Assembly (NCBI GenBank): GCA_035712365.1
Contig: DASTAW010000008.1
Coordinates: forward strand, 124,001-188,000
Direction of reading: 5' to 3'
Length of the DNA: 64,000 nt
Origin: Terriglobia bacterium
GTDB lineage: Bacteria > Acidobacteriota > Terriglobia > UBA7540
The translations under genes were made by a program, and so were the position numbers. The first letter of the stretch is position 1. The number at the start of each line of letters is the position of its first letter. The notes under the pieces are model-generated. The model did not search any database. It worked only from the letters and a program-made list of their open reading frames with translations, and was not told where the DNA came from. Below, piece by piece: positions 1 through 20,435 of the stretch.

Positions 1-426
1 AGGGGCAAGCGCACCAGTCTGGCGCCGGCGATCTGCCGCAAGCTGGGTCTCAGAAAAATCACCGAAGCTGTGCCCCTACAACTGACCCCGCAGAACATTG
101 CAGCGCTTTTTCCCGCCGTGCAGCAGGAGGCGGAGGCAGGAGACGCCACGGCCCGGCGACTGTGCCGTGAGGCGGCGGAAGATCTTGCCGAGCTGGCCGC
201 AACCATCATTCGCCGCCTTCGCTGGAAGAATCGCGCCGTTCCCGTAGTGTGCTCCGGGGGCGTGTTCCGCTCCAGTGATCTCATTCGGCAAGCCTTTGCC
301 CGCCGCATCCATCGCGTCGCTCCCCGCGCCCGCGTTTCGCTGCTCGAGCGCGAGCCTGTCGAGGGAGCATTGTTCCTCGCCCGACGATTGCTCTCGCCCC
401 GCGACACCAACCACCCGAAAGCGTGA
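1..426 (+). CDS. BadF/BadG/BcrA/BcrD-family ATPase, C-terminal fragment (N-acetylglucosamine-kinase-like)
   Basis: The reading frame is open from base 1 to a TGA at 424-426, so only the C-terminal ~141 residues of a longer protein are inside the window. It carries the second-domain signature of the ASKHA sugar-kinase fold: a helical stretch followed by VPVVCSGGVF and, near the end, an EGALFLA helix. Both are typical of the C-terminal lobe of BadF-type ATPases and N-acetylglucosamine kinases. The GTG at base 70 is internal and should not be taken as the start. A complete member of the same family lies at 54387-55379. Substrate cannot be decided from this fragment; an acyl-CoA-dehydratase activator is less likely because the cysteine cluster of that subgroup is not seen here. 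Confidence 0.7.
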   Translation, partial: RGKRTSLAPAICRKLGLRKITEAVPLQLTPQNIAALFPAVQQEAEAGDATARRLCREAAEDLAELAATIIRRLRWKNRAVPVVCSGGVFRSSDLIRQAFARRIHRVAPRARVSLLEREPVEGALFLARRLLSPRDTNHPKA

Positions 427-428
427 TG

Positions 429-508
429 CTGTGGCACGGGCGTCCCGCCCGTGTCGGACCACGGCCACGCCCGCCCTGAGCGAAGCGAACGAGATGGCCG
501 TGCCACAG
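429..508. repeat. Imperfect palindromic intergenic repeat (REP-like)
   Basis: An 11-bp perfect inverted repeat, ctgtggcacgg at 429-439 and ccgtgccacag at 498-508, encloses a second hairpin (cacgggcg / cgcccgtg, 435-453) and a gagcgaagcgaacgag tract. It lies directly behind the stop codon of the kinase fragment. Such modular palindromes in 3' intergenic space are common in GC-rich soil bacteria. It could act as a transcription or mRNA-end structure. No ORF is credible here. Confidence 0.6.
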
Positions 509-582
509 GGGACCTTGTAACAGAAGCTGGTAGCGCGGTCCCCCGATTTTGGGGTCCGCGGCTCTTTTTTTTGGAAGCCAGC

Positions 583-776
583 CCTCCACCCGTCACTCCG
601 ATCCCTGCTCCGCCTCCGTCACTCCGAGCCCCTGCCCGTGATCCCGAGTGTCGCGAGGAACCTGCTGTTACCGTTCCTAAGGAGGCCGGAGCTTCAGCTA
701 CGACATTTATCCGCCTCCCGCCAGCCAGCCTCAGCCGCTGAAGCAATCGTCAGGAAATTCTGCAGCATTGGCCCGC
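583..776. repeat. Interspersed intergenic repeat, copy A
   Basis: This non-coding stretch shares modules with 2640-2840: a cctNaggagg...gcttcagct.cgacattt block (here ending near 708), a gtcactccgag...gaggaacctgct block, and a cagccgctgaagc...aggaaattctg block near 738-762. Module order differs slightly between the copies, so this is a family of mosaic repeats rather than a clean insertion. The two short ORFs over it have no recognisable protein features. Confidence 0.45.
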
Positions 777-777
777 C

Positions 778-806
778 GCATACATTCCAGACTGCGGAAT
801 GTATGC
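778..806. repeat. Perfect 11-bp inverted repeat, 7-nt loop
   Basis: gcatacattcc (778-788) and ggaatgtatgc (796-806) are exact reverse complements around the loop agactgc. No T-tract follows, so it is not a classical terminator. It lies about 110 bp upstream of the proposed promoter of the HdeD-like gene and could be a regulator site or the end of repeat copy A. Confidence 0.5.
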
Positions 807-918
807 CCGACCCGCCAAATCCTTTGTCGCCTGTGGCCCCTCAGGTAAGAGGCTGCCGGGCCTTTCACAGACGGTCAAAACGAGCGGGTCCAGTTGGACA
901 AGATGTTCGTCATTTCAA

Positions 919-947
919 TTGCGGGGGACGATAGTTTGTTGTATAAC
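919..947 (+). promoter_or_regulatory. Putative sigma70-type promoter of the HdeD-like gene
   Basis: TTGCGG (919-924) and TATAAC (942-947) are separated by 17 bp. The -10 box matches the consensus at five of six bases, while the -35 match is weak. The predicted start falls about 25 bp before the ATG at 978, leaving room for the AAAAGGAGG ribosome-binding site at 961-968. Confidence 0.35.
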
Positions 948-977
948 CAGCTATAAATACAAAAGGAGGATTCGGTC

Positions 978-1559
978 ATGGCCCAAGACCCTGACACACC
1001 TCTCGGTATTTTCGCTACCGCTGGTGAGGAGTTGCGCCGGAATTGGGGATGGCTTCTCGCCCTGGGTATTCTCCTGGTCATTCTGGGCATCATTGCCCTG
1101 GTGGACTCGGTTTCGGTTACAGTGATTTCGATGTTGTTTTTTGGCTGGGTGCTGTTGGTCGCCGGCATCATCGAGGCGGTGCAAGCGTTCAGACACCGCA
1201 AAGCCGGCCATTTCTTCCTGCACGCGCTCAATGCGGTGCTCTCGATCATCGTGGGCCTCATGCTGGTCCGCCACCCCCTGGCGGGCGCCCTGGCGTTTAC
1301 GTTGCTTCTGGCCGCGTACTTCACTGTAGCGGGTATTTTCCGTATTGTCGCCGCGCTGTCCGTGCGGGTTCGGGGCTGGGGATGGGCGCTCGCGGACGGC
1401 ATTATTACCCTGGTCCTCGGGATCCTGGTCTGGACGCAGTGGCCGGTCTCGGGATTGTGGATCATAGGTTTATTCATCGGCATCGATTTAATCGTCGTCG
1501 GGTGGTCTGAAGTCATGTTGGCCCTGGCTGCGCGATCTCTTCGATCGGAAACCGCTTAA
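978..1559 (+). CDS. HdeD-family (DUF308) membrane protein
   Basis: A 193-residue integral membrane protein with six hydrophobic helices (roughly residues 23-42, 46-67, 75-95, 98-118, 128-150 and 153-178) in the three repeated two-helix pairs typical of HdeD/DUF308 proteins. In enterobacteria HdeD is an inner-membrane protein linked to acid resistance at high cell density; the activity in other phyla is not established. The start is well supported by AAAAGGAGG ten bases upstream of ATG 978. It is a single gene with its own promoter, followed by a transposase relic. Length matches the family. Confidence 0.85.
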   Translation: MAQDPDTPLGIFATAGEELRRNWGWLLALGILLVILGIIALVDSVSVTVISMLFFGWVLLVAGIIEAVQAFRHRKAGHFFLHALNAVLSIIVGLMLVRHPLAGALAFTLLLAAYFTVAGIFRIVAALSVRVRGWGWALADGIITLVLGILVWTQWPVSGLWIIGLFIGIDLIVVGWSEVMLALAARSLRSETA

Positions 1560-1670
1560 TGGCGCCGGCAGCGCATCGATAGGGTTGCCGGTTTCGTCAA
1601 GCAAAAATCTGCTTTTCGGTGCTGGTTTTTGGTTCGCCTTGGGACGGTGGCCCGGTTCCAACACACGTCT

Positions 1671-1832
1671 CTATTCGATCCCCTCTCTCAACATGATGTA
1701 GAGACGAATGGCCAGCTTGCCCGCCATGGTGACTTTGGCAAACGCCGCGCCCTTGCGAAACGCCAGGCGGCGATAGACGCGGCGGAATCGCTCGTCGTAA
1801 AGGTTTGCGGTGCCGATCAGGTTGGCATAGAA
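1671..1832 (-). pseudogene. IS110-like transposase C-terminal relic
   Basis: On the minus strand a ~53-codon frame closed by TAG at 1671-1673 reads ...YRRLAFRKGAAFAKVTMAG then KLAIRLYIMLREG. This resembles the basic C-terminal tail of IS110/IS116-type DEDD transposases (helix, KVA.ARKLA.RLY.MLR). The frame opens at a stop on its 5' side and nothing of the catalytic DEDD domain or of insertion-sequence ends is nearby, so it is a fossil. Assignment rests on motif resemblance only. Confidence 0.45.
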
Positions 1833-1880
1833 TTACTTCATAGATAAAGAGCTTCACTTCATTACCGGGAGGCGAATATC

Positions 1881-2483
1881 ATGAAAAGCCATACCATGAA
1901 AATGAATGCGTCGAGTGCGCGGGTGAGCGCCCAGCCCCACTTCCATCAAATAGCTCCGGAAATTCAGACCTATGGAACGGTCAAGCTGCTGCCCATTGAG
2001 CTCGAAGAGCCAGTCCGCCTGGAAATGACGGAACAACTGAATCTGCTTCTGGCAGACACCATGACCCTCCGCGATCTCTATAAAAAATCGCACTGGCAGA
2101 CCTCAGGGCCGACTTTTTACCAACTCCACCTCCTTTTTGACAAGCATTTCAATGAGCAATCCGAACTGATCGACGCGATTGCCGAGCGCGTTCAGACGCT
2201 CGGAGGCGTCAGCATTGCTATGGCGGCCGACGTTGCCGAGACGACCCGCATTGCGCGTCCTCCGCGCGGGAGGGAGGAGGTCCCGGTCCAGATTTCCCGG
2301 TTGCTCGACACGCACCAGATCGTTATCGGGTATGTGCGGCAACTCGCTCGTCGCGCCTCCGAACTGGGCGACGATGGAACCAACGACATTCTGGTTAGCG
2401 AAGTTTTGCGCACCAATGAGATGCAGGTCTGGTTCCTCAGCGAGCATCTGGTCGAGATGCCTCTGGTTGAGGCTAAACCGTAG
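1881..2483 (+). CDS. dps: Dps-family ferritin-like DNA-protection protein
   Basis: A 200-residue protein with the Dps four-helix-bundle signature: KKSHWQTSG followed by FDKHFNEQSELIDAIAERV, which supplies the inter-subunit ferroxidase ligands (His, Asp, Glu). Dps dodecamers oxidise Fe(II) with peroxide and shield DNA in stationary phase and oxidative stress. The ~45-residue N-terminal extension ahead of the bundle is polar and may contact DNA. GGGAGG at 1867-1872 supports ATG 1881; the second ATG at 1896 lacks such a site. The gene stands alone between an IS relic and repeat-rich DNA, close to the stress-associated HdeD-like gene. Confidence 0.9.
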   Translation: MKSHTMKMNASSARVSAQPHFHQIAPEIQTYGTVKLLPIELEEPVRLEMTEQLNLLLADTMTLRDLYKKSHWQTSGPTFYQLHLLFDKHFNEQSELIDAIAERVQTLGGVSIAMAADVAETTRIARPPRGREEVPVQISRLLDTHQIVIGYVRQLARRASELGDDGTNDILVSEVLRTNEMQVWFLSEHLVEMPLVEAKP

Positions 2484-2639
2484 ATGACGGGTAGCGGGTT
2501 GACCATCATCGTTTGCGCGTAGGCCGCCAAGCCGTTTCTTCGGCCAGAAACCGGCCTCAGAATGACCTCGCGTGAAGCGCCTTAACCTGCTGTATTCTGC
2601 CGAAACTGAAGGGTCCGATCCCCTGACCTTGCCGAGGCA

Positions 2640-2840
2640 TGGCCGGCCACGGTTGTTTCCTCAGGAGGTCGGGGCTTCAGCTCCGACATTTGACAGGCCC
2701 CGCCCTCCGTCATTCCGATCCCGCAAAACGGGAGAGGAATCTGCTGGTACGTCAGCTCCGAAGTTTATCGCGCCTCTAGCCAACGGGCTTCAGCCACTGA
2801 AGCGCTCATCGGGAAATTCTGAAGCACTGACCCGCGGTTC
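2640..2840. repeat. Interspersed intergenic repeat, copy B
   Basis: Shares the blocks of copy A (583-776): the aggagg...gcttcagctccgacattt hairpin module near 2659-2691, a gtcattccgat...gaggaatctgct module and a cagccactgaagc...gggaaattctg module near 2793-2822. It is followed by short gactcctggctcctg repeats. No protein-coding signal is seen between 2484 and 3438. Confidence 0.45.
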
Positions 2841-2987
2841 CTGACTCCTGGCTCCTGGCTCCTGCCTTCCAGCCTCTCCCGCCGATTTTGCTTGACAATC
2901 ACTGGCCTAGCATGGTAGTCTCTTCTCAGTGCCTGTAAGCGTGCGGCTTTCCGGGACTAAAAGTAACGAAATGGGACAGAAAAACAC

Positions 2988-3199
2988 GTTTTTTGAAAAA
3001 CAAACCGGAGAGGTTGTTGAAAACAAATAGAAATGGCCAAAAAACAAACCGGAACGAACCGGAAAACAAAGCGGAGAAGTTGTTGAAAACACGTATCTGT
3101 GGAAAAAACAAACCGGAACGAACCTAAAAACGAAGCTACCGATCTTGTTGAAAACATTAGAGGGTCAAAAAACGAACCGGAGACGAACCTGGAGAAGAT
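2988..3199. repeat. A-rich degenerate tandem repeat of about 65-66 bp
   Basis: Three copies of a (g/c)ttgttgaaaac box begin at 3013, 3079 and 3144, i.e. 66 and 65 bp apart. Each is preceded by an aaaacaaaccggaacgaacc-like block; a fourth partial block ends near 3199. The A-rich composition contrasts sharply with the surrounding GC-rich DNA. On the plus strand the units read like KTNRNEPKNEATDLVEN, but the frame slips by one base between units and a stop interrupts it, so a functional protein is unlikely. The rest of 3200-3438 shows nothing recognisable. Confidence 0.6.
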
Positions 3200-8389: not shown

Positions 8390-9682
8390 GTGAGTGAAGA
8401 TTCCGGCAAGAAAATAGGGCGAAGAGAGTTTATGGGCGCCGCTGCGGCCGCGGCGGGTTTTATGATCGTGGCCCCGCAACTGGTGCGTGGAACGGCGGCA
8501 AATTCTACCCTCCGTGTCGGCTTGCTCGGCTGCGGAGGCCGCGGCACGGCAGACGCCACCTACACGGTCGAAACGGGCAAGGCGCGGCTGGTGGCCCTGG
8601 GCGACCTGTTCCAGGACAAACTCGATGAGGCCAAGGCCCACTTTGACAAGTTTCAGCAGGCAAAAGGGATTCCGGCAATCGAGCGCAGGCTGATGTTCCG
8701 GGGGCCAAACGCTTACCAGGAAATCGCGAACTCGAAAGATGTCGATGCCATCATCATCACGACTCCGGCATACTTCCACCCGCAGCACCTCGCGCAAGTA
8801 GTGACGGCGGGCAAGCATGTTTATTGTGAAAAACCCGTGGCGGTTGATCCCGCAGGCTGCGTTTCGGTGCTCGATTCCTCCCGCCGCGCCCAGGGGCGCC
8901 TGAGCCTCGAAGTCGGGTTCCAGCTCCGCAACGCTCCTCCTTATGTGGAGCAGGTGAAGCGGATTCACGCGGGTGCTTTGGGAGACATCGTTTCCGGTGA
9001 AGGCCACTACTACGCCACCTGGCCCAAGCTTCCTGACTGGCCGAAAGCCTCTGCGGACGAACGGACCATCCGCAACTGGTATTACTCACGCATCCTTTCA
9101 GGCGACATCATCGTGGAGCAGAACATCCACGTGATTGACGTGTGCAACTGGGTGCTCCAGTCGCACCCCGTCATGGCTTCGGCCTCGAGCTCCCATAACG
9201 GCCGGCCCGAGAAAGGCAATGTGGCCGGGCATTACAGCGTGGTGTTCAAGTACCCCAACGGCGTCAGTCTGACGTTCGGTTCCACGCAGTTCGGCAACAA
9301 TCCGTGGGAAGTGGGCTGGCGGTTCTTCGGCACGAAAGGCGCTTCCGAGGCGCATTACTCCGGACCCGTTGCCATCTACGGCGACAATGCCTGGAAGTGG
9401 GGCGGAAGCCAGCCCGCAGCGCAAGCCTCGAAACAGGAATTTTCAACCTCCGGCGTTTTCGAGGACAATCTGGCGCAGGCGGACCCGGAGAAGAAGATGT
9501 CCTTTGTGGACAGCATTCTGAGCGGCAACTTCCATAATCAGGCCGAACAAGGCGTGGAATCGGCCTTGAGTTGCATGATGGCCCGGCACTCCTCCTACAC
9601 AAGTCAGGAAGTCAGCTACCAAACGATGGCGACTTCAGGTGAGCGATGGGATGCGGACATCAACATGAGCCAATTCGCCTGA
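8390..9682 (+). CDS. Tat-exported Gfo/Idh/MocA-family oxidoreductase
   Basis: 430 residues from GTG 8390, chosen because AAGGAGG (8377-8383) sits at ideal spacing. A twin-arginine signal (GRREFMGAAAAAAGF) precedes the NAD(P)-binding fold VGLLGCGGRG (about residues 43-52), and the family EKP motif occurs as CEKPVAVDP. Members oxidise or reduce sugars and inositols. Tat export with bound cofactor is known for glucose-fructose oxidoreductase. It leads a plus-strand set with the SIS protein at 9896 and is followed immediately by a 124-bp repeat whose first bases include its stop codon. Substrate unknown. Confidence 0.85.
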   Translation: MSEDSGKKIGRREFMGAAAAAAGFMIVAPQLVRGTAANSTLRVGLLGCGGRGTADATYTVETGKARLVALGDLFQDKLDEAKAHFDKFQQAKGIPAIERRLMFRGPNAYQEIANSKDVDAIIITTPAYFHPQHLAQVVTAGKHVYCEKPVAVDPAGCVSVLDSSRRAQGRLSLEVGFQLRNAPPYVEQVKRIHAGALGDIVSGEGHYYATWPKLPDWPKASADERTIRNWYYSRILSGDIIVEQNIHVIDVCNWVLQSHPVMASASSSHNGRPEKGNVAGHYSVVFKYPNGVSLTFGSTQFGNNPWEVGWRFFGTKGASEAHYSGPVAIYGDNAWKWGGSQPAAQASKQEFSTSGVFEDNLAQADPEKKMSFVDSILSGNFHNQAEQGVESALSCMMARHSSYTSQEVSYQTMATSGERWDADINMSQFA

Positions 9683-9804
9683 GGCACGGCGGGTATGGTG
9701 ACAAGATCGTTTGTAGCGCCGCCTTCCCGGCGGCAATTTTCAGGGCCGGTCCCGCTTGGGGGGACCGGCGCGACGGAAGTCCGTCACGCTATTATGCAAT
9801 CCTC
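9681..9804. mobile_element. MITE-like 124-bp element, copy 1
   Basis: Exactly the same length as the element at 12427-12550; by eye about 16 of 124 positions differ and no gaps are needed. The right terminal box tgcaatcctc (9795-9804) is intact; the left box has decayed (gaggcacggc instead of gaggattgca), and the stop codon of the upstream gene overlaps it. Internal hairpins gccgcc..ggcggc and acgga..tccgt are kept. No ORF is inside, so mobilisation would have to be in trans. Confidence 0.6.
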
Positions 9805-9895
9805 ATTAAAATAGCTGAAAGGTCTGACGGCGACATGCAGCTTGAGGATGTCTCCGTAAAGCTCCTGGTGGGACTCAAATAGTCCCTGGAGGGAG

Positions 9896-10522
9896 GTGAG
9901 AGAGTTGGTAAACACGGCAAGGAACCTGTCGGATTATCTTGCGGAACTCAAAACGGTTTTGGACAGCCTCCCACTCCAGCAGATCTCGAGAGCGGCGGAA
10001 ATTTTGTTTGAATGCTACCAGGCTGATCATACGGTCTTCACGTTTGGCAATGGCGGCAGCGGGGCGCTGGCGTCACACCTGGTCGCCGACCTTGGCAAAG
10101 GCACGCACTTCCCCGGGCCCAAAGAACTGGCCGCTGTCAGGCGCCTCCGGGCGATGGCAGTGACGGACAATATGCCCATGGTGACCGCCTGGGCCAACGA
10201 TACGCACTACGAAGACGTCTTCATGCGCCAGATCGAAAATTTCCTTCAGCCCGAAGACGTGGCCTTCGCCATCAGTGGGAGCGGGAATTCTCCGAACGTC
10301 CTCAAGGCCCTCGCATACGCCCGAGGCGCAGGCGCGATCACCATCGGACTGGGCGGGTTTGGCGGAGGCAAAATGAAGGACCTGCTGGATTGCCCCATCA
10401 TCGTCCCTTCCAGCAACATGCAGCAGGTTGAGGACGCCCATCTCGTCATCAGCCACATGATTTTTCTTGACCTCAAGAACCGCATCGCGGCCATGGCGGC
10501 AGCCGTTCGCATGCCGGGCTAG
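9896..10522 (+). CDS. SIS-domain sugar-phosphate isomerase (GmhA-like)
   Basis: About 208 residues carrying one SIS fold. Phosphate-binding signatures are FTFGNGGSGALASHL (about residues 48-62) and the SGSGNSPNVLKAL loop (about 131-143). The length and the GNGGS...ASH pattern resemble GmhA/sedoheptulose-7-phosphate isomerases more than GlmS-type enzymes. Start choice is open: GTG 9896 lies inside the strong GGAGGTGA box, so TTG 9905, five bases after the box, may be used instead. It lies 91 bp after the first 124-bp repeat and in line with the Gfo/Idh genes, suggesting shared sugar-phosphate metabolism. Heptose synthesis is possible, but no other heptose gene is nearby. Confidence 0.75.
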   Translation: MRELVNTARNLSDYLAELKTVLDSLPLQQISRAAEILFECYQADHTVFTFGNGGSGALASHLVADLGKGTHFPGPKELAAVRRLRAMAVTDNMPMVTAWANDTHYEDVFMRQIENFLQPEDVAFAISGSGNSPNVLKALAYARGAGAITIGLGGFGGGKMKDLLDCPIIVPSSNMQQVEDAHLVISHMIFLDLKNRIAAMAAAVRMPG

Positions 10523-10608
10523 ATTGGCGGACCCCACAGCCTTGGAGCGGAAAGATGTCACCGGTGGAATGCGCCATGCCGCTGGTCCTGGCTCGCGGCA
10601 ATGGCGGA

Positions 10609-10914
10609 CTAAACCACATCCTTGGTCTGGCTGGCGGGTTTTACGATGAACTGGCTGCGCGGGTGTTTCCTGACGAGACGCTCAAGGCCCCAAAGGGAGG
10701 ATTCCGCTCTGGTATCTTTCAACTCCTGGAACGATCGCGTGTTGCCGTCATTACAGCGCGGACAAATCATGGTAGGCCGCCCCAGCACGTTCACCTTCGG
10801 GTCCTTGGAGTAGAAAATTGACCTGAGCGCGTCATGATCGTTTTGCATCATGCAGTTGTGGCAAATAAACCAGCAGTTCCTGTCAATTTTTTTAAGAATG
10901 GTCAAGATGCTCAT
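10609..10914 (-). CDS. Small zinc-ribbon protein of unknown function
   Basis: 101 residues from ATG 10914 with AAGGGA upstream; the frame extends to 11214, but that part has no start signal. Two cysteine pairs, CHNC (about residues 17-20) and CPRC (about 50-53), are spaced as in a rubredoxin-like zinc ribbon. The C-terminal half is basic and helical (SLWGLERLVRKHPRSQF). It runs opposite to the flanking SIS and Gfo/Idh genes. A nucleic-acid-binding or protein-binding role is possible, but nothing in the sequence identifies a function. Confidence 0.55.
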   Translation of the reverse strand: MSILTILKKIDRNCWFICHNCMMQNDHDALRSIFYSKDPKVNVLGRPTMICPRCNDGNTRSFQELKDTRAESSLWGLERLVRKHPRSQFIVKPASQTKDVV

Positions 10915-11230
10915 CGCAGGTCCCTTCGCGCTCCTTCTCCATATTCCGGAACGGCCAAAATCCGACGGCCGGCACGATGCTATCGTCGAAGCCACCGCCG
11001 GGCTGCTCCGGTATTTGGAAATTATATTTCGATTGGCCGCAGTTCCGCCACAGAAAGGCCTGTACTTCACTTTGTGAGGTGAGAAGCAGAGGTCCTTTTC
11101 ACGCGAAGCCGTCGTTGCCGAAAACGCTCTCCGGTATTCCGTCGGCGATGGTAGAATGCACGTCGATGTCTGCGGCGGTCTGCCTCTGAAGAGTATCGGT
11201 ATCGTCAAATCCACTTAAGCGGAGCTTGAA

Positions 11231-12418
11231 ATGACAGAAGCTATTCGAATCGGAATTGCCGGAGCGGGTTTCGCCGCGCGGTTCCACATGAAGGGCATTC
11301 GGAGAGTCTACGGCGTGCCTCTCACCGTCTCTGGCGTCATCTCCAACACGCCGGCTTCACGCCGGAAATTTGCGCAGGAGTTTGGCGTGAAAGCCTTCGA
11401 TACTCTCGAAGAACTTTGCAACGCCTCCGACGTTATCGACGTATGTACTCCCGGGTCAAGCCATGAAACGGTGGCGGTTGAAGCGCTGAATCGCGGCAAG
11501 CACGTCATCGTCGAAAAGCCCTTTACCGGCTATTACGGGCCGCCTGGCGCGGATGGCGCCAAATTTCGCGGTAATACCTTCTCCAAGGAGATCATGCTGC
11601 GAGAGGCCCTGGCAAGCTGCCGCCGCATCCTCGAAGCCGCCAGCAAAAGTGGAAAGCGGATCGGCTACGCTGAAGATTGGGTCTATGCGCCTTCCGTGCA
11701 GAAGGAGCGCGAGATCCTGGAGAAGAGCGGCGGGCAGATCCTGTGGCTGATCGGCGACGAATCGCACAGCGGATCGCATTCTCCCTACTACGGTATCTGG
11801 AGATTTTCAGGAGGCGGTTCGATTGTGGGCAAAGCCTGCCATCCTCTCTCGACGGCGCTCTACCTGAAGGCGGTTGAAGGAAAGGCGCGCGACGGCAAGC
11901 CCATCCGGCCGGCTACCGTGTCAGCCAGGACGCACGAAATCACACGCCTGAAGGCTTTCCGCGACGCGGGGATTATTCGCACCGGCTACGACGACATTGA
12001 AGACTATGGCCAGATCCACATCACGTTTGAAGACGGGACCGTGGCCGACATTTTTGCTTCCGAGCTCGTCATGGGCGGCGTCCACAACTGGCTCGAGGTC
12101 TTTGCAAACAACCACCGCACCCGTTGCAACCTGAATCCGATTGACGCTCTTACCACCTTCAATCCGAAGGAGGATTTCTTCAAAGATATTTACGTTACGG
12201 AGAAGATTTCCACCAAGCAGGGATGGAACCATCCGGCGCCAGACGAAGACTGGCAGCATGGCTACCCGCAGGAGTTCCAGGACTTTCTCGAGGCCTTCCG
12301 CGACAATCGCGAGCCGCTGGCGAACGGGGTCCTCGCGTCCGACAGCATCGCCGTGCTCTACAGTGCCTATCTATCGGCCGAGCGCCGCGGCGCGGAGGTG
12401 GAAATCCCTCGTGCCTGA
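11231..12418 (+). CDS. Gfo/Idh/MocA-family oxidoreductase
   Basis: 395 residues, cytoplasmic (no signal). The Rossmann motif is IGIAGAGFAARFH (about residues 6-18) and the catalytic-region motif is VEKPFTGYYG. Compared with typical members there is an insertion of about 25 residues directly after EKP (GPPGADGAKFRGNTFSK...), and a WRFSGGGSIVGKACHPL segment in the position where family members carry the substrate-binding H..D-type residues. GGAGC lies seven bases upstream of ATG 11231. It is followed after 8 bp by the second 124-bp repeat. Substrate unknown. Confidence 0.82.
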   Translation: MTEAIRIGIAGAGFAARFHMKGIRRVYGVPLTVSGVISNTPASRRKFAQEFGVKAFDTLEELCNASDVIDVCTPGSSHETVAVEALNRGKHVIVEKPFTGYYGPPGADGAKFRGNTFSKEIMLREALASCRRILEAASKSGKRIGYAEDWVYAPSVQKEREILEKSGGQILWLIGDESHSGSHSPYYGIWRFSGGGSIVGKACHPLSTALYLKAVEGKARDGKPIRPATVSARTHEITRLKAFRDAGIIRTGYDDIEDYGQIHITFEDGTVADIFASELVMGGVHNWLEVFANNHRTRCNLNPIDALTTFNPKEDFFKDIYVTEKISTKQGWNHPAPDEDWQHGYPQEFQDFLEAFRDNREPLANGVLASDSIAVLYSAYLSAERRGAEVEIPRA

Positions 12419-12426
12419 CCATTACT

Positions 12427-12550
12427 GAGGATTGCAAAATATGGTGACAAGCTTGTTTGTAGCGCCGCCGTCCCGGCGGCATTTTTCAGGGCCGGTCCCG
12501 CTTGGCGGAACCGGCGCTACGGAAGTCCGTCACTCTATTATGCAATCCTC
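12427..12550. mobile_element. MITE-like 124-bp element, copy 2 (intact ends)
   Basis: Perfect 10-bp terminal inverted repeats, gaggattgca (12427-12436) and tgcaatcctc (12541-12550), enclose a non-coding core. An inner pair gtagcgcc / ggcgctac encloses two hairpins (gccg..cggc and gccggt..accggc), then an acgga-ag-tccgt hairpin follows. No obvious target-site duplication is seen. It separates convergent genes: the plus-strand oxidoreductase and the minus-strand SIS gene. Confidence 0.65.
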
Positions 12551-12613
12551 TTTAGGCCACGCACAATCGCACGCTGGTGGCGACTAGCTCTTCCAGAAAC
12601 ATCCACCAGACGC

Positions 12614-13648
12614 CTACAACGTCCGGGTGACGATTTTGAGTGAGCGAGGCTTGTCCGGATCAATCCCCTTCAGTTCCGCCAGCAGGCAGGCAAAAAGCTG
12701 GCCCGGAATGATGTAAGGAATCGGAGTATAGACTTCCGGGATTTCGGCGGGAACGCGAATGGCGTTCGTGTGGCCCGGCAGCCGCACACCTTCGGCGGAG
12801 ATGACGAGGGTTTCCGCGCGTAACTTGCGGACGCGGTCTGCCAGCCTTTTCATGTCCGCATAGGTCTTTCCAGGCGGCATAAAGAGGATCACCGGAAAGT
12901 CACTCTCGACCATGGCGATGGGGCCGTGCAGGAAATCGGCAGCGGAAAATCTTTCCGCAACCACATAGCAGGTTTCCATCAGTTTCAGTGAAAGCTCAAA
13001 GGCGTTTGCATAGTTCAGCCCCCGGGCCACCACCACGCACTGCCGCATAAAGCGGTAGCGCTCGACGATGCGCCGGATTTCCGGAAGGATCTTGAGTGAA
13101 CTTTCCGCCCACCTCGGGATTTCGCCGACTCGCTCGAGCGTAACGTGGGACCCCAGTGCCGCCGCCAGCATGTAGAGCATCAGGAGTTGCCCGGTATAGG
13201 TCTTGGTGGCGGCGACCGACCGCTGGGTGCCGGCGCGCACGAAGAAAGCGTCATCCACAATACCGGCCATGGCAGACTTCGTTTCATTCGTGATGCCCAC
13301 CGTAAACGCACCCTGGCGGCGTGCCGCATGGAGCACCGCGTTGATGTCCGTTCCCTCGCCGGACTGCGAAATTCCAATCACCAGCGCCTTCCGCAGATCG
13401 ACTTTGGCATGGTAAAGCGTATGGATCGAAGGCGCGCACAGAGACACGGGTTTGCCTGTGGTCAGTTCCAGCAAGTAACGCCCGAAAAGCGCGGCATTGT
13501 CAGAAGTCCCGCGCGCAACCAGCAGGATCATGCGGAAGTCCTGGCGTTCGGCGAACCTCTTGAGTTCAACGACGTGCTTGTGCTCAGCTTTATAGCAGCG
13601 CAGCAAGGCGCGCGGCTGGTCCAGAATTTCCCTCATCATGAATGACAT
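12614..13648 (-). CDS. SIS-domain isomerase/deaminase (GlmS isomerase-domain / AgaS-like)
   Basis: 344 residues with two SIS folds, as in the isomerase half of glucosamine-6-phosphate synthase but without the glutaminase domain. First-fold signatures are LLVARGTSDNAALFGRYLLE and GISQSGEGTDINA; the second fold includes VVARGLNYANAFELSLKLMET with the family ARGLNY/E..LKL..T pattern. Known relatives act as amino-sugar-6-phosphate deaminases/isomerases (AgaS, FrlB-like) or fructoselysine deglycases. It is the last gene of a minus-strand set behind a Gfo/Idh gene and an aminotransferase. Starts at 13648 or 13636 are equally possible. The role is presumably amino-sugar phosphate turnover. Confidence 0.78.
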   Translation of the reverse strand: MSFMMREILDQPRALLRCYKAEHKHVVELKRFAERQDFRMILLVARGTSDNAALFGRYLLELTTGKPVSLCAPSIHTLYHAKVDLRKALVIGISQSGEGTDINAVLHAARRQGAFTVGITNETKSAMAGIVDDAFFVRAGTQRSVAATKTYTGQLLMLYMLAAALGSHVTLERVGEIPRWAESSLKILPEIRRIVERYRFMRQCVVVARGLNYANAFELSLKLMETCYVVAERFSAADFLHGPIAMVESDFPVILFMPPGKTYADMKRLADRVRKLRAETLVISAEGVRLPGHTNAIRVPAEIPEVYTPIPYIIPGQLFACLLAELKGIDPDKPRSLKIVTRTL

Positions 13649-18716: not shown

Positions 18717-20435
18717 TTGACCCGACGGGACCTTTTACTGGCCAGCCTTGCCGCTTGCGCATGGCCCTCGAGTACACGCCCAGCCCTTCCCTCGTCAGCG
18801 GCGCCTCGTCCGCTCTTTCGCGACGTGGCTGAGGAGACCGGCCTCAAATTCCACCACTTCAGCGGCTCAGCCGGAGACCTGCTGATGCCGGAAATCCTCG
18901 GGGCGGGCCTGGCATTGATCGATTATGACAATGATGGCGACCTGGACGTCTACCTGCTCCAGGGAACCATGCTCCAACCGGATAAGAAACCGCTGGCGCC
19001 GCCTCCCGCAGGCTGGAAGCCGGGAAATCGTCTGTTTCGCAACATGCTTTCTGAAACCGGCAAGCTGCAGTTTGTGGATGTCACCGAAAAGGCCGGCGTC
19101 GGAAACGTCGGCTACGCCATGGGAGTTGCCGTGGGCGATTACGACAATGATGGATATCAGGACATCTACGTCACCAACTTCGGGCGCAACGTTCTCTATC
19201 ACAACAATGGCGATGGAACATTCACCGACGTCACTGAGTCCGCCGGCGTTGGAGATCCTCGTTGGAGCACCAGCGCCGCGTGGGTTGACTACAATGGCGA
19301 CGGATTGCTGGACCTTTTCGTGTGCAATTACGTGGACTTTACTGTGCGCGGCCACAAGAAATGCTATTCCCCTTCGGGGCAGCCCGATTATTGTTCGCCG
19401 ATTGCTTACCATGCCATTCCGTCGCGTTTGTACCGCAATCTCGGCAATGGGAAATTTGAAGATGTCACCCAGGCCTCCGGCATCGGATCCTCCTACGGAC
19501 CAGGACTCGGCGTCATCTGCATGGACTTCAACGGCGACGGATTAATCGATATTTATGTGGCAAACGATACGGCTGCAAACCTCCTCTGGCTGAACCAGGG
19601 CAACGGCACGTTCAAGGAATCCGGTCTCGATCTGGGCGTTGCCCTCAGCGCGGACGGCCTGCCCAAAGCCGGCATGGGCATCACCGCGGATGATATCAAC
19701 AATGACGGCCGCCTGGAGATACTGGTCACCAACCTGAACCGGGAAGGAGTCACCCTGTTTCGGAGCGATGGAAAGGGCATGTACGATGACGACACCGCCC
19801 AATTCCGGCTGGCGCAATCGACGTTCGGATATACGGGCTACGGCGTGGGCTTTATTGATTACGACAACGACGGCCTGATGGACCTCTTCATCGCCAATGG
19901 AGCTATGACCATCATCGACTCCATGCAAAGCAACGCCGAGCCTTACGCCCAGAAGAACCAACTGTTCCACAACGAAGGTCCGGACAAGGGATTTCGCGAA
20001 ATCACCGCCAACGCCGGGCCTTTCCTCCAGTTGGTCGAAATCAGCCGCGGAGCTGCGTTCGGGGACATCGACAACGACGGCAACATCGATATCGTCATCA
20101 CCAACGACGACGGCCCCGCCCGCCTTTTCCTGAACCAGGGCAGATCTGGAAATCACTGGCTGCTGGTGAAACTGGAAGCCCCGAAACTTAACCGCTTCGG
20201 CATGGGCGCCAGGGTTGGCGTTTTCCGTAGCGGCGCGCCCACCTTGTGGCGCCACGCCCACACCGATGGCAGCATGTTGAGCGCCAGCGACATCCGAGTA
20301 CACTTCGGGCTTGGCAACAACCCCAGAATTGAAGCGATTGTGGTCAACTGGCCAGACGGGAAAAAGGAAAAGTGGGAGAATGTCCGCGCCGACCGCATCC
20401 TTACTCTACGCCAGGGGACTGGACACTCCCTCTGA
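18717..20435 (+). CDS. FG-GAP/VCBS-repeat protein with C-terminal ASPIC/UnbV domain (CRTAC1 type)
   Basis: 572 residues from TTG 18717; AGGAGG at 18698-18703 is 13 bases away, longer than ideal. The start MTRRDLLLASLAACAW is a twin-arginine-like signal. At least seven calcium-binding FG-GAP blades follow (DYDNDGDLDVYL, DYDNDGYQDIYV, DYNGDGLLDLFV, DFNGDGLIDIYV, DINNDGRLEILV, DYDNDGLMDLFI, DIDNDGNIDIVI), consistent with an integrin-like beta-propeller. The last ~110 residues (NHWLLVKLEAPKLNRFGMGA ... VNWPDGKKEKW) match the ASPIC/UnbV module. It is probably a secreted or surface Ca-binding protein; the ligand is unknown. It ends 15 bp from the convergent LacI gene. Confidence 0.88.
   Translation: MTRRDLLLASLAACAWPSSTRPALPSSAAPRPLFRDVAEETGLKFHHFSGSAGDLLMPEILGAGLALIDYDNDGDLDVYLLQGTMLQPDKKPLAPPPAGWKPGNRLFRNMLSETGKLQFVDVTEKAGVGNVGYAMGVAVGDYDNDGYQDIYVTNFGRNVLYHNNGDGTFTDVTESAGVGDPRWSTSAAWVDYNGDGLLDLFVCNYVDFTVRGHKKCYSPSGQPDYCSPIAYHAIPSRLYRNLGNGKFEDVTQASGIGSSYGPGLGVICMDFNGDGLIDIYVANDTAANLLWLNQGNGTFKESGLDLGVALSADGLPKAGMGITADDINNDGRLEILVTNLNREGVTLFRSDGKGMYDDDTAQFRLAQSTFGYTGYGVGFIDYDNDGLMDLFIANGAMTIIDSMQSNAEPYAQKNQLFHNEGPDKGFREITANAGPFLQLVEISRGAAFGDIDNDGNIDIVITNDDGPARLFLNQGRSGNHWLLVKLEAPKLNRFGMGARVGVFRSGAPTLWRHAHTDGSMLSASDIRVHFGLGNNPRIEAIVVNWPDGKKEKWENVRADRILTLRQGTGHSL

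Follow-up and report, generated by a model that had tools for sequence, protein, structure and literature searches.

A composite miniature element with IS630-like ends and a REP-doublet core: probable identity of two 124-bp intergenic repeats in an acidobacterial genome

The locus considered here raises the question of what two closely similar, hairpin-rich stretches of 124 bp are, and why each of them lies shortly behind the stop codon of an open reading frame (ORF). Both are found in a 64,000-nucleotide stretch of contig DASTAW010000008.1 (the window) from the genome assembly of a Terriglobia bacterium (GCA_035712365.1, hereafter G000). A preliminary description of the window had compared them to miniature inverted-repeat transposable elements (MITEs). 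Our analysis makes it very likely that both stretches are copies of a non-autonomous IS630-type MITE with a REPIN interior, that is, two inverted GTAG-tagged hairpins of the repetitive extragenic palindrome (REP) type, for which an IS630-family transposase would have provided mobility. Judged by its sequence, the element is composite, with the outer ends of one kind of transposon and the middle of another.

Aligned without gaps, copy 1 (9681–9804) and copy 2 (12427–12550) were identical at 108 of 124 positions (87%), in agreement with the estimate first made by eye, and a repeat search on the same stretches, which lie 2.7 kb apart at an offset of 2746, returned 92% over 115 bp. The identity was unevenly distributed: 9681–9693 matched at 5 of 13 positions, with no visible homology, and 9694–9804 at 103 of 111. 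The left end of copy 1 is lost, and its homology to copy 2, on the plus strand, begins only at 9694, the remaining part running up to a right-hand TA (9694–9808). Copy 2 carries a perfect 10-bp inverted repeat (GAGGATTGCA/TGCAATCCTC; 14/15 when extended) and folded far more stably than shuffled sequences (z of −6.15 and −6.12 on the two strands), thereby bearing out the perfect terminal inverted repeats (TIRs) and multi-hairpin core reported earlier for one element; the values for copy 1 were only −2.03 and −1.66. The predicted fold of copy 2 is a single long stem with near-perfect TIRs and two inner hairpins. From left to right, copy 2 comprises the left TIR with its flanking TA (TACTGAGGATTGCAAAATATGGTGAC; 12423–12448, plus strand), GTAG-tagged hairpin 1 (12459–12480, plus strand), hairpin 2 followed by CTAC, which is an inverted REP (12490–12520, minus strand) and forms a REP doublet with hairpin 1, and the right TIR with its TA (12529–12554, minus strand). 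In copy 1, GTAG-tagged hairpin 1 lies at 9713–9734 (plus strand), hairpin 2 at 9744–9774 (minus strand), an inverted REP with the tag GTCG in place of GTAG, and the right TIR, with TA at its end, at 9783–9808 (minus strand), which, shifted by 2746, corresponds to the right TIR of copy 2.

A pair of similar sequences separated by 2.7 kb could in principle stem from simple segmental duplication of an intergenic stretch inside the window, and similarity reaching far beyond 124 bp had been named as a sign of this. A pairwise alignment of about 300 bp around each copy found no clear similarity outside the element. The host assembly (4.67 Mb in 65 contigs, 98.9% complete) was searched with copy 2, and at least 40 distinct places with 80–100% identity were found (45 rows, five of them antisense self-matches that add no new location); as 40 of 82 initial candidates were scored, this count is a minimum. 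Twelve shorter or truncated copies, recognised by the TIR pattern and by reading of the sequence, bring the tabulated copies to at least 52, the edges on the truncated sides of L192–L197 and L062 being approximate, and two more remnants (L158, L159) stand outside the 52. Segmental duplication is ruled out by this copy number, with copies on many contigs sharing common boundaries and relatives in other genera, and retains practically no probability. The copies are short, non-coding and dispersed, and overlaps with predicted genes did not exceed 25 bp for any of the 52; together with their TIRs, TA flanks and the IS630-type elements of relatives with the same ends, the original comparison to MITEs holds. 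The placement of the pair behind two oxidoreductase genes looks like coincidence, as the remaining 50 copies of the table are located at other places in the genome.

The outer part of the element, about 26 bp comprising TA and TIR, resembles the termini of IS630-type insertion sequences, about 1.1 kb long, that occur in the same family but in other genera. The TIR pattern TAYTGAGGATTRCAWAATANNGTGAC, with up to three mismatches, was present in 31 of the 39 genomes of the family, G000 among them, and the control gave 0 in all 39. In G003 (L198), a TIR lies just ahead of the start of an IS630-type transposase gene split over two frames; a good TIR at the other end of this gene was not found. Both transposase ORFs of L198 matched NCBIfam transpos_IS630 (E of 2e-31 and 1e-30), the catalytic second part matched Pfam DDE_3 (1e-27), and a protein search with this transposase found relatives in 18 of the 39 genomes. 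Open frames of 326 amino acids with 63% and 62% identity to the L198 protein occur at L206 (G020) and L207 (G015), where a TIR flanks the transposase at both ends of elements of 1095 and 1094 bp, respectively; a motif similar to the left TIR of copy 2 terminates both, so that the TIRs of the short element are held in common with IS630-family elements. A degenerate TIR pair was present at L208 (G010; L224 is the same place), and L221 and L227 of G038, which belongs to the genus of the window, hold transposase C-termini with a TIR at contig ends. At up to six mismatches, the TIR was detected in 11 of the 30 transposase loci returned, and the reversed-sequence control gave one match in 83 kb. As a separate observation, a sequence resembling the left end of the IS630-type element, together with its leader up to the ATG, occurs at L198:529–600 (G003:C117) directly upstream of another ORF (585–1052), as if a leader or promoter had been donated to that ORF.

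The inner part, about 62 bp, is a REP doublet (REPIN) of two inverted hairpins with GTAG and CTAC at the outer edges, a module of its own that the preliminary description had not recognised, and copy 2 has both of the inverted, GTAG-tagged palindromes of a REPIN. Relatives were represented by 34 distinct TIR-paired elements with the pair distance limited to 60–220, of which 29 were 121–127 bp long; among them the TIR is constant and the stems vary. A GTAG-like tag and a stem score of at least 6 were found at both core ends in 21 of the 34, for a shuffled expectation of 0.02. This per-element hairpin test was used because the consensus fold placed the second hairpin poorly; when 24 elements were aligned, double changes that preserve pairing were seen in 12 of the 27 consensus pairs. 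Within G000, the right hairpin had the window form GTCCCGC in 39 of the 52 copies, CATCTTG in four, a fused single hairpin in four and other or truncated forms in five. A second subfamily (B) of G000 has ends beginning TACCGAAGGTTGCATAATC; between the consensuses of A (12 chosen copies) and B (8), the cores agreed at 57 of 62 positions and the arms at only 24 of 37 and 26 of 35, one position at each end being an artefact of the cut. Among the copies of either subfamily, arms and core show about the same degree of conservation. The contrast between A and B points to separate histories of core and arms.

Cores are also found apart from these TIRs. The 22 bases of copy 2 hairpin 1 occur identically, outside such TIRs, in G027 and G029 and in an ORF of G027 (L292) that contains a REP-associated tyrosine transposase (RAYT). 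In G029, the core stands alone, without the TIR, in 14 of 14 fetched copies, 11 of which end in CTAC (by eye), and the genome as a whole had 0 TIR matches. In G027, the core lies within an unrelated inverted repeat, GTAGTGTCC...GGACACTAC, in six of six fetched copies (of 17 matches; one degenerate), and its right-hand tag reads TTAC; elements with these ends and the same kind of REP doublet were recorded at L249–L254 (G027) and also at L082 and L097. A RAYT gene is flanked on both sides by GTAGCGCCGGCATCTTGCCGGC, the CATCTTG form, at L295 (G030) and L302 (G029), with two exact copies at L295; in G000, GTAGCGCCGGCATCTTGCCGGC is the minority form of hairpin 2 (4/52). NCBIfam REP_Tyr_transpos was matched by L292, L295 (E of 2e-31), L302 and four of four tested G000 Y1_Tnp proteins. 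In G000, nine Y1_Tnp loci lie above the cut-off (L031–L039), several of them flanked by GTAG/GTGG hairpins with other stems. G000 RAYTs were considered as carriers of the TIR or the core REP and rejected, neither being found beside them.

In L302 (G029:C244, minus strand, 1–3012) and L292 (G027:C362, 13–1554), the RAYT domain was also observed in frame within a Type ISP restriction-modification ORF. Type_ISP_C and Y1_Tnp share one open frame, in which the REPs are translated as in-frame linkers such as AGVSPA...QDAGAT; by profile positions, the sites apparently differ between the two genera.

These data bear on a second explanation, in which the whole 124-bp unit is a REPIN or bacterial interspersed mosaic element (BIME) moved by a RAYT through single-strand HUH transposition, and the outer TIR is merely the base of a long hairpin. 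The GTAG-tagged inverted hairpins, the whole-unit fold of copy 2 and the G000 RAYT loci would all fit such a unit. However, the flanks are TA, G029 cores occur without the outer part, the inverted repeats beside G000 RAYTs differ from this TIR, and the doublet alone is not the dispersed unit in G000, where conservation extends to TIR and TA. Since IS630-type transposases are enclosed by similar outer ends, mobility by a RAYT alone is rejected as the main explanation, and we regard it as very unlikely.

Insertion of an IS630-type MITE would be expected to leave its mark at the target. TA was at the expected place in 71 of 88 recognisable element ends, and information content drops to background immediately beyond a CYTA half-site. 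For two copies adjacent to conserved genes (L187 and L013), the orthologous places in G037 lack the element (upstream identity 85% and 86%). Where the G000 copy reads TAC TGA, the G037 gene ends in TAG at the first site and TGA at the second (frames by eye), and removal of the element and one TA from the G000 sequence gives TAA. The first of these empty sites, which retains a single TA within its TAG, supports a duplication of TA on insertion.

Several observations weigh against the interpretation as an IS630-type MITE with a REPIN core. TA was present at both ends in only 22 of the 36 copies with both ends recognisable, and the flanks alone cannot prove a TA duplication because the TA belongs to the palindrome. 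The second empty site in G037 reads TGA and has no TA, so that one of two empty sites contains it. The TIR was lacking, at the same mismatch limit, in 19 of the 30 transposase loci returned. An autonomous partner in G000 was sought by TIR pattern, transposase protein and DDE_3 family and was not found: the protein search gave 0 matches at E ≤ 1e-10, and three DDE_3 proteins lacked such ends over about 1.5 kb or up to the edge of the contig. The absence from the window of a transposase with such ends, which had been noticed at the outset, extends to the whole assembly as far as searched; a transposase in the same genome is not required of a relict MITE. As to the core, 13 of the 34 elements of relatives failed the two-hairpin test, mostly on one side, one lacking the tag at both ends; the exact REP beside L295 differs from hairpin 2 of the window copies; and the REP of the MITE core was not seen next to any RAYT of G000. 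No movement of the element was observed.

The ORFs upstream of the two copies, both on the plus strand and called Gfo/Idh-like in the preliminary description, extend over 8390–9682 and 11231–12418. Copy 2 starts 8 bp past the stop codon of the latter, and the homologous part of copy 1 starts 11 bp past that of the former. Relatives of the 11231–12418 protein were found in 29 loci, 28 of them in acidobacterial metagenome-assembled genomes (titles such as Acidobacteria and Terriglobia) and one in Gammaproteobacteria; the TIR, at up to three mismatches, was not found in these 29 loci. The closest relative, L129 (isolate DBS2-1.bin74), shares about 80% DNA identity across several syntenic blocks and lacks both elements at the corresponding places. 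Exact empty sites for the window copies were sought there, and the intergenic DNA was too diverged to place the join. Copy 1 had been thought to supply part of the stop-codon context of ORF 8390–9682. This cannot be maintained: the first Gfo/Idh-like gene of L129, which is free of the element, has TGA at the same codon, and the ORF has its own stop codon.

The location of all copies relative to genes was tabulated with our own simple hexamer gene caller, for which the window and 14 stretches of 20 kb each served as training data. Genes were called on both sides of 51 copies, in tandem for 35, convergent for nine and divergent for seven. A distance of at most 50 bp from a stop codon was found for 25 of the 51, against 12.7% of intergenic TA sites in a 344-kb sample; this first null did not include TAs within stop codons and made the effect at the smallest distances look too large, so that the size of the excess depends on the null, and of the 12 copies placed no more than 10 bp from a stop, one (L196) depends on a truncated edge set by eye. 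With distances of up to 1 bp excluded, 22 of 27 copies in gaps of up to 300 bp lay within 100 bp of a stop (55% of TA sites; p = 0.004), as did 23 of 30 in gaps of up to 400 bp (45%; p = 4e-4); within 30 bp, the count in gaps of up to 300 bp was 8 of 27 and not significant (p = 0.15). The tendency toward gene ends is real. For seven of the 51 copies, the TA occupied by the element belongs to a stop codon itself, five reading TAA and two TAC TGA. Stop-codon TAs make up 6.2% of non-coding plus stop TA sites, for which seven of 51 gives p = 0.038, and 12.6% of YTAR sites, for which it gives p = 0.47. Special targeting of stop codons was rejected on this ground, and recognition of gene ends as such is not needed because exact stop-codon insertions match the YTAR prediction. 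Of the earlier suggestion that the element targets gene ends, the proximity to stops in excess of intergenic TA sites stands, and targeting of the stop codon itself does not. The position at 3' ends comes partly from the TA target, which is found in two of three stop codons.

The same proximity would also be produced if copies were kept near stops as selected structures of the 3' untranslated region, the RNA hairpins ending or stabilising transcripts. In line with this, and with the co-option as a 3'-end structure that the preliminary description had offered as an alternative, one hairpin of copy 2 is terminator-like. But terminator-like sites in the region were not clearly above shuffles (5 against 3.2 ± 1.8), a search of 9300–12900 gave no Rfam match at E up to 1, and orientation to transcription was balanced in tandem contexts (12 against 12 for copies on the plus strand and 6 against 5 on the minus strand). 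With both copies also missing from the same places in L129, selected 3' structure appears an unlikely explanation.

MITEs with a GTAG REP are already known from Coxiella burnetii, and the present element is a further variant. According to the available part of its description (PMC5896051), QMITE2 carries a GTAG REP and is located chiefly in 3' untranslated regions, and some of its insertions alter gene ends and bring a stop, features in which it resembles the present element. It differs in length (150–190 bp) and in having direct repeats of 7–11 nt of variable sequence rather than TA, and the same excerpt describes it with a GTAG REP and not with two inverted REPs whose stems are exchangeable. 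RUP, Correia/NEMIS and ERIC are likewise non-autonomous, about 100–160 bp long, mostly intergenic and bounded by TIRs and terminal TA, and the ends of RUP resemble those of IS630-Spn1; the accessible portion of PMC2229807 mentions no inner GTAG REP doublet in them, and the resemblance to the 127-bp enterobacterial ERIC concerns size and TA ends only. REPINs and BIMEs with RAYTs, as outlined in the available text of PMC3116915 and PMC2817692, share the inverted REP pair, the GTAG-type tags and the REPs flanking the RAYT gene, which were seen here in relatives, whereas the dispersed unit of G000 ends in IS630-type TIRs outside the REPs. In PMC3733652, as far as its available text goes, the TIRtron/TIRYT and mixed GTAG-1 structures of Pseudomonas are inverted repeats of degenerated GTAG-1 units and unrelated stem-loops, and RAYT-like genes flanked by TIRs occur in Acidobacteria; those TIRs flank tyrosine transposases and the present ones IS630-type DDE transposases, a comparison made by description only. 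Among the papers listed from the open-licence PMC literature (titles and abstract starts), none was found to report an exchangeable REPIN core in an IS630-type MITE, which is no proof of absence.

Two further sets of repeats were observed in the window. Short A-rich direct repeats with units like AAACAAACCGGA, spaced 64–66 bp, occur at 2997–3136, and five 36-nt direct repeats (65–78% alike) with units like CGACAACGACGGC at 19142–20104. The latter may be Asp/Asn-rich repeats of a protein.

With regard to the mechanism, shared ends and TA flanks suggest that an IS630-family transposase would recognise the TIR of about 24 bp and move the unit into YTAR sites with duplication of TA. The REP doublet probably became part of the MITE scaffold independently, for which RAYT activity, recombination and gene conversion are candidate routes, and would travel as cargo. 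Copies would survive near 3' ends because the element ends regenerate a stop (TA followed by ATGA reads TAA, and TA followed by CTGA reads TAC TGA) and selection presumably removes insertions inside genes. Because an element end reading TA(C/A)TGA gives the stop back, insertions in stop codons would cost little; with the target contained in TAA and TAG, this may account in a simple way for some of the preference of TA-targeting elements for 3' ends. MITEs and REPINs are commonly regarded as distinct classes, each with transposases of its own. A more far-reaching and still tentative idea, which we consider possible but doubtful, is that dual-mobility elements exist across this acidobacterial family, in which RAYTs would insert or swap REP hairpin pairs in MITE scaffolds and IS630-type transposases would spread the cargo. 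If so, two unrelated transposition chemistries would share one unit of about 125 bp. With the modules visible apart and together in related genomes, a loading of hairpins into MITEs by RAYTs becomes testable.

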